Shown here piece after piece: positions 50,916-55,114 of a stretch of 64,000 nt of DNA. Source of the DNA: Solwaraspora sp. WMMD792 (GTDB lineage Bacteria > Actinomycetota > Actinomycetes > Mycobacteriales > Micromonosporaceae); assembly GCF_029626105.1 (NCBI RefSeq), contig NZ_JARUBH010000009.1, positions 5,208,001 to 5,272,000 on the forward strand. The letters run 5' to 3'. The translations under genes and the position numbers were made by a program. Each line of letters opens with the position of its first letter. Position 1 is the first letter of the stretch. The notes beneath the pieces were generated by a model. It was given only the letters and a program-made list of their open reading frames with translations. It was not told the origin of the DNA and searched no databases.

Positions 50916-50992
50916 CGGGGTGTGGCGCAGTTTGGTAGCGCGCTTCGTTCGGGACGAAGAGGTCGTCGGTTCAAATCCGGCCACCCCGACCA
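50916..50992 (+). tRNA. tRNA-Pro (anticodon CGG)
   Basis: A 77-nt cloverleaf: acceptor CGGGGTG (50916-50922) pairs with CACCCCG (50982-50988), discriminator A, and CCA encoded at 50990-50992. The anticodon stem CTTCG/CGAAG encloses TTCGGGA, giving CGG at 50950-50952. The T-loop reads TTCAAAT. A promoter TTGCCC (50874-50879) - 16 bp - TAGTAT (50896-50901) lies just upstream. Its 3' side borders an integrase remnant, so it is the probable attachment gene. Confidence 0.97.
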
Positions 50993-50995
50993 GGT

Positions 50996-51030
50996 CAGAG
51001 GCCATGTCGACGACGTCGACATGGCCTCTG
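50996..51030. repeat. Perfect 17-bp palindrome after tRNA-Pro, followed by a 12-bp tandem repeat
   Basis: CAGAGGCCATGTCGACG (50996-51012), one central A, and CGTCGACATGGCCTCTG (51014-51030) form an uninterrupted palindrome 3 nt after the tRNA. CTGAGTGTCTAA then occurs twice in tandem (51028-51039 and 51040-51051), the second copy reaching the integrase stop codon. It may terminate the tRNA transcript or mark the attachment junction. Confidence 0.85.
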
Positions 51031-51047
51031 AGTGTCTAACTGAGTGT

Positions 51048-51956
51048 CTAAGCTTTTCCGGCTGGTTCGTCGTCGGGTCCGAAGATCTCATCCATGGCGC
51101 GCGCTCCGGTCAGCAGGACCGGCCGTAGCTGGTGCCGGTAGACCTTCTCCGTCACCGACGTGCCCGAGTGGCCGACCAGGTCGGCGATCTGCTCAAGGCT
51201 CATGCCGCTGTCCGACAGCAGCGACACGAAGCTGTGTCGCATTTCGCGGGGCGTCCACTCCTTGTCGTTCAGCCCGGCCAGCCGGGCGATCCGGCGGAAG
51301 GCTCGGCGGACGTTCGCGGCGTCCAGTTCCTGCCCGGTCGACGACGAGAACACCACGCCGGTGTCAGTCCATCGGCTCCCGGCACGCTGCCGCGCCCGTT
51401 CCTGGTCGGCCTGGTGCCGGTTGAGCGCCGCGACACACCGGGCGGGCAGGGCGAGGGTGCGACGTGACTTCCTGGTCTTGGTGTCGCCACCGGCCCGCAC
51501 CGACCGCCACACGTTGATCGTCGGAGGAACCGGCGGATCGGCGTCCGGCCTGCCGACCAGGTCGACGCGATCCCACCGCAGCGCGCGCAGTTCCTCGGTA
51601 CGGGCACCGGTGAGCAGTGACACCACGACGTACGCGTAGAGGCGGCTGTGCTCGGCGGCTTTCAGAATCGCCTTGGCCTGGTCGAGAGTCAGCGACTTCG
51701 ACGGGCGACCGGTCTGCCCGGACGGGATACCGCAGGGCATCCTTGCGGTGAACCCGAGCCGGGCCCGCACCGGACGGGCCTGAAGGCGCACCCAGTCGCA
51801 GACTGCGGCGAACGTGTACGCCCCGGCCATCACCGCGCACACCGCCGCCGCCGGCACGCTGATCAGCGGGTACCGCCGGCCTAGTGGATCACGTGGGTTC
51901 GTTGATGACCTCCAAGGCCATGAACAAGCTGCGGCGGTCGCGACCAGTGACCGCAA
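51048..51956 (-). pseudogene. Tyrosine site-specific integrase, N-terminally truncated
   Basis: From about GRPSKSLTLDQAKAI (near 51730) to the stop, the protein matches the actinobacterial phage/pSAM2-type integrase catalytic domain. Arg is seen in LLTGARTEELRALRW, the His-x-x-Arg region in TPREMRHSFVSLL, the third box in LVGHSGTSVTEK and the nucleophile Tyr in VYRHQLRP. The catalytic half looks intact. The usual ~150-residue N-terminal arm-binding and core-binding domains are missing; the open frame upstream (to 51956) reads as unrelated Cys/Ala-rich sequence. The gene is therefore probably dead or unable to bind att sites. It faces the tRNA-Pro 3' end, the normal position for an island integrase. 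Confidence 0.8.
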
Positions 51957-52339: not shown

Positions 52340-54751
52340 ATGAATACAGATAGGCGGTGGATCTCGCGGGCGGGGCTAATCATTGCCGGCGTGACGGCGG
52401 GATCCATCGTTGGTGTCGTGGGCGCCCGCACAGGCTGGTGGACCTCGATCCTAGACACTCCTGTTGAAGGTTCGTGGGACTGGATCGAGCGGGCCGGCTG
52501 GATCACAGGGACCCTGGGCCTGCCGGCAACCGTTATCCTGGGAATACTCGCCTTGCGTCAAGGGCGGGCCCAGCAACCCAGCGATGGAACAGCAGACCTT
52601 AACACTCCTCGCCGCCAGCCGGCCGAAATAAGTAGAATATGGAACATCCCGGCTCCGGTCCGGACGTTTACCGGCCGCAGGACCGACCTAGCACAATTAC
52701 GCGAAGGACTAGAAAAAGACGGCCGCACAGCCCTAGTCCCCGTTTCCACAACAGCAGTAGTGGGCACCGGTGGAATCGGGAAAACGCAACTCGCCAGAGC
52801 GTTCGCCTACAGTCACCGGCACGAGTACCAGCTTGGCTGGTGGATTCCCGCTGAAAGCACCCTGGAAGCGGTTAGCGCACTGCGAGAATTGGCCGTAGCC
52901 CTTGGTGCACCCGAAATGCTTCCGAATCAGTATATCATTTACATTCAACAAGAACTTGCCGAGCGCCGACGATGGATCTTGATCTTCGATAATGCGACTA
53001 ATCCAGAGGACATTGAGCCACTCCTCCCCCCTGCCGGATCGGGTCATGTGTTGATAACATCCCGCAATCCCGGGTGGCATGGAGTAGCAGAAACCCATCC
53101 ACTGGACGCCTTACCCGTACCGGATGCAGTTCGCCTCCTACTCCTACGCACGGGCGGTCGCACCCGATCCGATCAGGCCGCACAGAAAACTGTCGCTTCA
53201 GAAATCGCCCACGAGCTTGATTGCCTACCCCTCGCCCTAGAGCAGGCAGCATCGTATGCCGCAAGTCGACATCTGTCACTACAGGAATATCTCGATCTCC
53301 TCCGCAAACAACGGCACGATCTGATGCAAAAGGGATCGCCATTGGGATATCGATTAACGGTACATGTTGCGGTCACGTTGACGGTCGAGCAACTCTCAGC
53401 TCAAGAGCCTGCCGCAGCCTGGATTCTTGAGATTTGCGCGCTGCTAGCTCCAGACCAACTTCCCGTTCTGGAGCTACTGGAGGTGGCCGCTCGGCCTCAC
53501 CTACTGAACGACGAGGCGGTAAGGAATCCTCTAGGACGCGCCGAGATTCTTGGACTACTTTATCGCAGCGGCATACTAGTAGACGATACCGATATTGATA
53601 CCGACCGCAATTATAGGAGCGCACGCTTGCACCGCCTTATTCAAAACGTGGTACTCGATCGATTAGACACCAAAAGTCGCCAACAACGCGTAAGTGACGC
53701 CACCGCATTACTCGCCGCGCTCTTCCCTCACGACGCCTGGGACCGTCCAGATATCTGGCAAACCTGCACTCGATTGGTCCCTCACATCCGAGCACTGACT
53801 GACCGCGCAGCGGCAGGCTACGGTACAACAAAGGACCTTGCAGAACTTGTGACTGCAGCAGCGCACTTCGTGTTGCAGCGAGGTCTCGACCTACCTACGG
53901 CACAACATCTACACGAACGCGCCACAGAGATACTGGAGTGCATTCACGGTCGCAATACCGACCATCCCGATGTCGCTCGCAGCCTTTTCTTCCTCGCCGG
54001 CGACCTACGGGCGTCCGGCAAGATTCTGCAATCGCGCGACTTGAGTGAGCGAGCCCTTGAAATGTTTGAACGCCTGTACGGGCATGATGCCGACGAACCA
54101 GAACTAGCGCGAAGTCTACATTTCCTTGCCGTCGACTTACATGAACTCGGCGAAATTGAGCGCGCGTGCAGCTTAAACCAGCGCGCCTTAACGATACGCC
54201 AACGGATCTATGATTCAGATCCGGACAGTCATCGAGATCTAGCCTGGAGTCTTACCAACTTGGCAAATAACCTTCGAGACCTAGGCGCTGCCGAAAATGC
54301 GCGAGAGCTAGACGAACGGGCGTTGGCGATTCGCCGGCAACTCTACGGACAAGATACGGATCACCCCCATGTCGCCTGGAGCATCGCGAACCTTGCAGCC
54401 GACCTACGAGAGCTGGGAGATGCCAACCAGGCACGACATCTAGACGAACAAGCGCTAGCCATGCGTCGCCGACTCTTTGGGGAAGAGACCGACCATCCTC
54501 AAATTGCCTGGAGCCTTGCGGCGCTGGCCGCAGACCTAAGAGAACTCAGGTATCCAAAACGCGCACGGGAAATTGACGAGCAAGCACTGTCCATGAGGCA
54601 GCGACTATTTGGCTGCACAACGGACCATCTCCACATAGCCTCAAGTATGGCTAGCCTTGCAAAGGATCTCTACATCCTTGGCGAACTGGACTATGCACAG
54701 GAGTTGGATCGGAAGGCAAGCCAGATGCGGTCCCGACTCACTAGCACGTGA
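52340..54751 (+). CDS. Membrane-anchored STAND (NB-ARC) NTPase with tandem TPR repeats
   Basis: 803 residues from the ATG at 52340 (GATAAT 6 nt upstream; a GTG at 52298 is an alternative without ribosome site). Two N-terminal helices (about residues 8-30 and 52-72) are followed by an NB-ARC NTPase. Walker A is GTGGIGKT at 142-149, Walker B LIFDNA at about 214-219 and the NB-ARC GxP motif is CLPLALEQAASY. The winged-helix region gives way to about six TPRs of ~42 residues (repeating YGQDTDHPHVAWSIANLAAD-like units). Such STAND proteins oligomerise on sensing a ligand with the repeats; in bacteria several defend against phage. GC is far lower than flanking genes (sampled lines 50-63%), indicating transfer. 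There is no separate effector gene; the membrane segment may be the effector. Confidence 0.88.
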   Translation: MNTDRRWISRAGLIIAGVTAGSIVGVVGARTGWWTSILDTPVEGSWDWIERAGWITGTLGLPATVILGILALRQGRAQQPSDGTADLNTPRRQPAEISRIWNIPAPVRTFTGRRTDLAQLREGLEKDGRTALVPVSTTAVVGTGGIGKTQLARAFAYSHRHEYQLGWWIPAESTLEAVSALRELAVALGAPEMLPNQYIIYIQQELAERRRWILIFDNATNPEDIEPLLPPAGSGHVLITSRNPGWHGVAETHPLDALPVPDAVRLLLLRTGGRTRSDQAAQKTVASEIAHELDCLPLALEQAASYAASRHLSLQEYLDLLRKQRHDLMQKGSPLGYRLTVHVAVTLTVEQLSAQEPAAAWILEICALLAPDQLPVLELLEVAARPHLLNDEAVRNPLGRAEILGLLYRSGILVDDTDIDTDRNYRSARLHRLIQNVVLDRLDTKSRQQRVSDATALLAALFPHDAWDRPDIWQTCTRLVPHIRALTDRAAAGYGTTKDLAELVTAAAHFVLQRGLDLPTAQHLHERATEILECIHGRNTDHPDVARSLFFLAGDLRASGKILQSRDLSERALEMFERLYGHDADEPELARSLHFLAVDLHELGEIERACSLNQRALTIRQRIYDSDPDSHRDLAWSLTNLANNLRDLGAAENARELDERALAIRRQLYGQDTDHPHVAWSIANLAADLRELGDANQARHLDEQALAMRRRLFGEETDHPQIAWSLAALAADLRELRYPKRAREIDEQALSMRQRLFGCTTDHLHIASSMASLAKDLYILGELDYAQELDRKASQMRSRLTST

Positions 54752-55042
54752 CGGTAGCGGAGGCGGTGGCGGTGGCGGTCCGGCTCTGTTGGTGTTGGTG
54801 TTGATGTACCCGATCGTCCCAGGCTGTCTGGTCGTAGTCGGGGTCGGGTGGGATCCAGCGGTGGGAGCCGCGTCGCAGTGCATTGGTTCGTCGCCGGAGC
54901 GCAGGATCGATATCTATATACCCATTGGGGGCCTGACCAGATGCGCGATCTTCTGGATCAAGAAGCGCCGACCAGACCTCCACGACACCGAGGAGTGACC
55001 GCAGGAAGGTCCGAACATCGGCGCGGAGCCCCGTACTATACT
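54752..55042. other. Non-coding right flank of the island
   Basis: Low-complexity sequence: GGCGGT repeats at about 54763-54780 and TTGGTG repeats at about 54787-54806. Short frames on both strands are compositionally biased and unlike proteins. A TATACT hexamer at 55037-55042 could start a short plus-strand transcript into the following hairpin. No copy of the tRNA-Pro 3' end was found here. Confidence 0.5.
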
Positions 55043-55097
55043 TGAGGCAGACCGCCCGGCCCCTTCGTGGGCCGGGTTTAATCTTTCGACTGCCTCA
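55043..55097 (+). terminator. Nested hairpin between the island and asd
   Basis: Inner stem CCCGGCCC (55055-55062) with GGGCCGGG (55069-55076) is followed by TTTAATCTTT, a plus-strand terminator. An outer inverted repeat TGAGGCAG (55043-55050) / CTGCCTCA (55090-55097) encloses it. TATACT lies directly upstream, so this could also be a ~50-nt RNA rather than a bare terminator. Confidence 0.65.
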
Positions 55098-55114
55098 GTG
55101 GCCGGCCCGATGCG

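Follow-up and report, generated by a model that had tools for sequence, protein, structure and literature searches.

Antiviral STAND NTPases such as Avs and bNACHT are laid out as an effector, a STAND module and a repeat sensor, and plant CNL receptors (coiled-coil members of the nucleotide-binding leucine-rich-repeat, or NLR, family) carry a membrane-acting N terminus, which serves here as a working analogy. The tetratricopeptide repeats (TPRs) of kinesin light chain form a peptide-binding groove. Among actinobacterial conflict systems, AP-ATPase (NB-ARC) STANDs with C-terminal TPRs have been described, some of them with an N-terminal TIR domain (PMC7159879); the other literature drawn on is PMC10907252 and PMC13092281. 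With these systems we compare a gene from a window of 64,000 nucleotides of Solwaraspora sp. WMMD792 (contig NZ_JARUBH010000009.1, positions 5,208,001 to 5,272,000), which lies between a tRNA-Pro gene and asd and encodes the 803-residue protein P0001. We read it, with moderate confidence, as an NB-ARC-class STAND receptor, NLR-like and anchored in the membrane, that was acquired horizontally and most likely serves in defence or some other biological conflict. An immune-type function is our best guess from its predicted features, and the step from receptor to anti-phage protein is the weakest of this reading. Below, G-numbers denote genomes and L-numbers loci.

P0001 is predicted to open with a two-helix membrane head, to continue into an ATPase with a winged-helix region and to end in a TPR array (Table 1); an alternative in-frame GTG start at 52298 would lengthen it to 817 residues. 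Pfam scores the NB-ARC domain at 24.5 bits against a cut-off of 23.5, and the motifs follow in order: Walker A GTGGIGKTQ (142-150), Walker B LIFDNA (214-219), TSR (240-242), LPLAL (296-300) and HRL (431-433), with a D in place of G in the GxP motif. The key residues K148/T149, D217/N218, T240-R242 and H431/R432 are present, and K148, D217, P297 and H431 are invariant in 11 aligned proteins and at least 90% conserved in 56. With both the ordered motifs and the C-terminal repeats, P0001 belongs by sequence to the STAND NTPases of the NB-ARC/AP-ATPase class. The only solved relatives of its core found by sequence are the plant CNLs MLA13 (E 6e-4) and Sr35 (E 0.13), and the best solved relatives of its TPR array are the kinesin light chain TPRs (E 3e-15). 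Judged by hydropathy and charge only, the head consists of two hydrophobic stretches with positive flanks and an acidic loop of 24 residues between them, so that both of its ends are predicted to be cytoplasmic. The composition of the gene is foreign: its GC content is 0.57 against 0.715 for the window, its GC at third codon positions (GC3) is 0.554 against 0.914 for asd, 0.945 for the penicillin-binding protein gene and 0.943 for the metallophosphoesterase gene, and 8 of its 803 codons are TTA, against none of 360 in asd and none of 838 in the penicillin-binding protein gene. The first-pass annotation had called the product a low-GC, membrane-anchored STAND/NB-ARC-TPR protein of 803 residues, a description that these data bear out.

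The head recurs elsewhere. We defined the head module as two predicted N-terminal transmembrane (TM) helices with a W, W, E, W motif and a P-loop NTPase directly after them, all of which P0001 has; the head of the Asanoa locus L185 can be aligned with it. A two-row profile (A3) matches 25 of 354 family genomes, a lower bound given that at most 14 candidates were scored per genome, and 9 of 394 class genomes, the own genome being counted in both figures. Of the 27 non-own family places read, 18 have a P-loop immediately after the head, with two identical copies in G486 among them, six carry a head or half head with no in-frame P-loop (L241, L243, L246, L253, L259 and L261), and three are unrelated to it (L254, L256 and L258). 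Four of the eight non-own class places were read and all four are unrelated, and a 16-row profile (A4) run over the 394 class genomes at E 1e-4 returned the own genome and one partial match only. Within this sampling, the head looks confined to the Micromonosporaceae, the family to which Asanoa also belongs. M1, W46, W48, E50, W54 and R73 are invariant in 16 aligned heads, rows that were picked for carrying the motif, and the conservation of tryptophan and glutamate near the predicted outer membrane edge would fit a role beyond anchoring. Pfam models leave the head uncovered in P0001 and in the ten head proteins scanned, apart from a weak holin-like match (E 0.02) in L280.

The proteins that bear the head fall into three ATPase groups, assigned by Pfam for 10 of the 17 non-own proteins and by core alignment for the rest. 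Group a combines NB-ARC with TPRs (P0001, L276, L279 and the Asanoa gene L287). Group b has P-loops such as GGSSTGKS (L271-L274, L280 and L281), with TPRs found by Pfam in L273, L280 and L281 and by eye in L271 and L274. Group c is AAA_22/AAA_16-like with TPR_12 (L275, L277, L278 and L282-L286), its NB-ARC matches falling below threshold. Within each group, one representative aligns with the other cores at E ≤1e-22; the best match between groups, L275 against L287, has an E of 0.003 and covers 41 residues at the P-loop, and no match of the P0001 core is better than E 3.2 in group b or 0.12 in group c. The three may nevertheless be distant STAND kin. The P0001 head is 41-46% identical over the alignment to those of L271 and L272 in group b and 25-27% identical to the other heads of its own group a. 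BLAST gives 50% over 70 residues (E 4e-19) for the former and 31-32% for the latter, with 43% over 21 residues for L279; it was run on a small set with no composition correction, and its E-values are relative only. Because the head tree is weakly supported (backbone 41/38), the case for shuffling rests on these pairwise identities and on the cores that do not align. They suggest that the head is a membrane module, effector-like or sensor-like, that has been shuffled among ATPases. More tentatively, the Trp-rich head might be an undescribed membrane output module, a pore former or a sensor of membrane state, which the Micromonosporaceae shuffle among at least three STAND-like ATPase groups with helical-repeat sensors as their membrane-acting counterpart of the plant CNL resistosome; P0001 would then be a hotspot-borne case in which an NB-ARC engine carries a group-b-type head.

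The outputs through which STAND immune receptors act are swappable, and the relatives of P0001 vary at the N terminus: TIR_2 occupies the N terminus in 29 of the 56 proteins scanned and EAD1 that of L148. In Streptomyces prunicolor and S. gelaticus, L168 and L198 share 78% identity along 600 residues, starting at L168 residue 94, and have unrelated N termini, two TM helices in one and a helix-turn-helix-like domain in the other (by eye; Pfam names nothing there), with L198 extending 47 residues beyond L168. As read from these sequences, the pair is a clean natural head swap. Faster change of the TPRs was looked for as well and set aside, there being no consistent signal over two pairs: L036 and L040 are 76% identical in the TPRs and 87% in NB-ARC, L168 and L198 78% in both. 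A single origin of the two TM helices in the NB-ARC family was rejected too, since seven two-helix rows need five changes on the core tree, at least three of them forced by well-supported branches; P0001's own place in that tree is unsure because of its long branch (1.39). The two-helix label lumps the W-x-W-x-E head together with other pairs of TM helices. Among the loci then in the set, a motif scan found W-x-W-x-E before an NB-ARC P-loop only in P0001 and L185, and the motif is not in L032, L036, L040, L137, L168 or L189.

Close relatives of P0001 were not met in any search. The genus sample holds seven Solwaraspora-genus genomes including the own, one per species, and the best match among the other six is 36% identical. 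Fourteen regions around asd from genus and family genomes have no match of at least 150 nt at E ≤1e-8 to window 51083-54751. The comparison with sister strains that the first-pass annotation had called for thus speaks for an accessory gene, one that the genus as a whole does not share. Neither of the refuting observations named at first pass was made: besides its patchy presence, the gene departs from normal codon usage, and the homologue neighbourhoods read by eye share no metabolic operon. Over most of the length, the best identity among 60 relatives, with at most 16 candidates per genome scored, is 36%, and short pieces of TPR reach 45%; in 393 other class genomes, searched to a limit of E 1e-70 with two candidates scored per genome and therefore with possible misses, the best relatives are 34-38% identical. 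In their best segment, the 80 named loci retained from a total of at least 560 relatives are 27-36% identical, and none of these searches found a relative above 38% over most of the length. Matching plasmid records number 218, all below 60% identity (27.7-35.4% among the 15 matches listed). Viral contigs gave six matches, two of them spanning most of P0001, and an exact-peptide scan with P0001 alone gave none.

The NLR-like reading draws on the architecture, the intact motifs, the match to MLA13 and the varied N termini of relatives, and further on the recurrence of the head before P-loop NTPases (18 of 27 places), the hotspot location described below, the foreign composition and two relatives adjacent to cas genes. 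These last, L036 (G004) and L040 (G003), are two-helix proteins of the same genus. Their orthologous 2TM-NB-ARC-TPR genes (loci L110 in G004 and L112 in G003) follow a Rossmann/DUF2520 gene and are flanked by cas3 and a CRISPR array of about 40 repeats. G004 has a type I-C cas5 over cut-off and a cas8c piece below it, and G003 showed cas3 and the array only. If P0001 is such a receptor, its cytoplasmic TPR array would bind a ligand, whether a peptide or a protein from a phage or some other non-self source; nucleotide exchange would then lead to formation of an ATPase ring, the ring would bring the head hairpins together within the membrane, and the clustered heads could permeabilise it or otherwise halt the cell before the invader spreads.

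Several results weigh against a defence receptor. No PADLOC family matches P0001 at E ≤0.1, and none of 50,697 phage records encodes a relative at E 1e-5. CRISPR arrays lie near only 3 of the 95 relatives' loci, two of the three being orthologues in a set that holds at least one protein twice; a general CRISPR association was accordingly rejected. The neighbours of L032, L137, L168, L189, L276, L279 and L287, read by eye with no defence-model screen, include no defence gene. Expression is uncertain, since no ribosome-binding site is visible by eye before either the ATG or the GTG start and an insertion sequence (IS) end lies about 40 bases upstream. A literature search, with most subscription papers outside its reach, found none that joins bacterial NB-ARC, TPR, anti-phage and Actinobacteria. 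What survives of the first-pass interpretation is an accessory, membrane-anchored STAND gene of foreign composition at a tRNA hotspot; the defence role that it attached to that gene was not borne out by PADLOC, phage records or CRISPR proximity. Defence catalogues may miss such actinomycete receptors, given that PADLOC is silent on P0001. A head that has no Pfam model and sits on ATPase groups that do not align points to a common membrane mechanism; it is a short, testable unit and a handle for finding immune-type actinomycete receptors of the kind that catalogues may pass over.

Alternatively, P0001 may be a membrane signalling receptor with no part in defence, its Trp-rich hairpin sensing a cue from outside or in the membrane and its STAND-TPR part relaying it to a transcription factor or partner, as in regulatory STANDs. 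We think this unlikely. Seven of the eight group-c genes (L275, L277, L278 and L283-L286) stand tail-to-tail with a response-regulator-like gene of one family, 202-218 codons for the product by eye, an apparent two-gene system for which we know of no name. This receiver-like partner favours a signalling reading for group c, as do MalT-like TPR matches, below cut-off, in the three group-c proteins scanned; and the W-x-W-x-E-x3-W motif at the predicted outer end of TM2, in all 16 aligned heads, suggests more than anchoring. However, the three other NB-ARC head proteins have no such partner gene and neither has the window, Pfam finds no DNA-binding domain in P0001, and the gene is an accessory one in a mobile hotspot.

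That hotspot is the interval between tRNA-Pro and asd. The tRNA-Pro between core genes that had been noted at first pass is confirmed as tRNA-Pro(cgg), and it occurs within the 18 kb fetched around asd in four of the six other genus genomes and four of eight other family genomes. The distance to asd is 4.1 kb in the own genome, 5.6 in G005, 4.0 in G006, 1.0 in G004 and 0.7 in G002, with no tRNA seen in the region fetched for G001 and G003; five of the seven genus genomes keep the pair, with 0.7-5.6 kb of differing DNA inside it. The four pairs of other family genomes are 2.7, 15, 1.0 and 9 kb apart, the remaining four genomes having no pair. The neighbourhood is collinear with congeners (e.g., 16 kb at 95% in G004), and the interval is a variable hotspot. 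Its cargo is a DUF3800 protein, an IS110 transposase and a split TPR gene in G005 and the same TPR gene, unsplit, in G006. In G007 (L088:1930-4714), a tyrosine integrase that has its N-terminal as well as its C-terminal domain faces tRNA-Pro, with a Fic-domain gene behind it. Nearby, G005 has a second variable site: in L081, at the place that corresponds to window 49293-49395, a stretch of 7.6 kb separates the penicillin-binding protein gene from the one that follows.

Table 1. Features of the tRNA-Pro/asd interval and of P0001 (window positions)
Feature	Position	Strand	Remarks
tRNA-Pro(cgg)	50916-50992	+	hotspot anchor
Perfect 18-nt inverted repeat just 3' of tRNA-Pro	50995-51031	+	similar in G005, G006, G002
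Tyrosine integrase, C-terminal part, 5' end lost	51048-51745	-	catalytic domain ~51129-51695
First IS terminal remnant (DDE transposase start), fused in frame with integrase remnant	51746-52166	-	copies in congeners
Second, different IS terminal remnant	52250-52298	.	end ~40 bases 5' of P0001 ATG
P0001, 803 residues: two-TM head, NB-ARC (STAND) ATPase with winged-helix region, TPR array	52340 (ATG)-54751	+	
Two-TM head, residues 1-85	52340-52594	+	predicted TM 11-29, 54-72; W46-x-W48-x-E50-x3-W54
NB-ARC ATPase and winged-helix region	52640-53680	+	motifs from alignments
C-terminal TPR array	53780-54748	+	TPR_10 127 bits, TPR_12 114 bits (Pfam)
Small reading-frame remnant; right-hand insert junction at P0001 stop codon	54752-54914	-	79-81% identity
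asd	55115-56194	-	right-hand core neighbour

From the tRNA onwards, the insert holds the 3' part of an integrase gene, a first IS end, a second IS end and the P0001 gene. The inverted repeat that precedes it is probably the terminator of tRNA-Pro. The integrase frame 51048-51956 (-), with a GC3 of 0.83, matches Pfam Phage_integrase at 75.5 bits over residues 88-276 and is 29% identical to the integrase at the same tRNA in G007 (L088:1930-3084); as noted at first pass, it is truncated and faces the tRNA, but its N-terminal part is not integrase at all. Residues 20-82 match DDE_Tnp_1_assoc (35.9 bits), the start of a transposase, so that the frame is a chimera of two broken genes. The transposase remnant is 71-73% identical to copies in G001, G002, G003 and G005, and all four aligned copies end at 52165-52168. 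The second remnant, which may be IS701-like, matches three other places in G000, two in G004 and two in G006 at 81-84%, and by eye a transposase-like frame adjoins it in L225 and L234, of five copies read. On the right, the counterpart of the small frame directly follows the tRNA in G005 and G006, where homology to the window skips from 51053 to 54752; the right end of the insert is therefore the P0001 stop codon. A second copy of the last 25 bases of the tRNA is absent from the window at up to three mismatches, a shorter repeat being able to escape this search. A clean tRNA-integrated element was rejected, with no attachment repeat found, the integrase truncated and chimeric, and IS scraps between integrase and NTPase. 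The first-pass terms "lone" and "single-gene island" need qualifying: P0001 is the one intact gene of the insert, wedged among the remnants of an integrase and two ISs, and the genome has eight loci, P0001 included, over the cut-off of the NCBIfam model NF040586. Elsewhere, L220 (G006:C1:5516006) is 78% identical to window 51000-51137, which covers the tRNA flank and the integrase tail, and adjoins tRNA-Val(cac), so that related integrases may not be restricted to a single tRNA.

A gene so placed could also be decaying cargo, recently stranded among mobile-element scraps and no longer expressed or functional. The truncated integrase and two IS ends that adjoin it, the junction right at its stop codon, the long core-tree branch and the want of a visible ribosome-binding site all lean that way. 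Its 803 codons are nonetheless open, the catalytic motifs are intact and the head retains the residues invariant in 16 heads, and we regard decay as improbable.

The NCBIfam label raises a last possibility, that P0001 is an orphan component of an FxSxx-COOH system, which makes cyclophane ribosomally synthesised and post-translationally modified peptides (RiPPs). NF040586 (FxSxx-COOH system TPR protein) scores P0001 at 393.9 bits against a cut-off of 300, and AP-ATPase-TPR proteins coupled to FxSxx peptide systems have been published (PMC7159879). Yet at E ≤0.001 the model picks up every one of the 56 proteins scanned, P0001 plus 55 from the set of 80 named loci, with archaeal and cyanobacterial proteins among them, and the label fxsT is also borne by a gene on a Methylobacterium plasmid. 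In 14 control genomes the model matches in three and exceeds the cut-off in none. The genome's sole FxsB radical-SAM gene over cut-off (C9:3816402-3817490) lies 1.4 Mb from P0001, flanked by two far better fxsT matches of 1010 and 892 bits. One of these, L001, is a ParA-like/TIR/NB-ARC/TPR protein; P0001 has neither the ParA-like part nor TIR, and no radical-SAM gene adjoins it. A search with TIGR04268 (FxSxx-COOH precursor) gave no match, its control being silent everywhere too, and the literature search found no paper with two of FxSxx, cyclophane, FxsB and FxsT. Judged by these matches, the label is generic for P0001; a RiPP role taken from the name was rejected, for the model matches everything scanned and the FxsB locus is elsewhere, and membership of an FxSxx system is very improbable. 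As a separate observation, a frame of 1226 codons in the window (37535-41215, -), by eye with zinc-ribbon-like and nucleotide cyclase-like domains followed by a P-loop ATPase, contains a weak NF040586 match.

How, then, does the putative NLR-like receptor P0001 stand beside the systems named at the outset? With the actinobacterial AP-ATPase-TPR conflict proteins it has the ATPase clade and the TPR tail in common, and relatives align from about residue 90 to 800 at 26-38% identity; it differs in having a two-TM hairpin in place of the TIR or ParA-like parts and in that no vWA/MoxR partner, metallopeptidase or FxSxx peptide was seen beside it. Although it is over the cut-off for FxsT (NF040586), its head, gene context and score class are different. 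The TPR array resembles that of kinesin light chain, which is, however, a eukaryotic cargo adaptor with no ATPase. Avs and bNACHT (PMC10907252) have the same effector, STAND and repeat-sensor layout as P0001, but P0001 finds no PADLOC match, its NTPase is of the NB-ARC type and its head is no nuclease. Finally, the plant CNL resistosomes MLA13 and Sr35 have a like NB-ARC core, joined in P0001 to TPRs rather than leucine-rich repeats and to a two-TM hairpin rather than a coiled coil.

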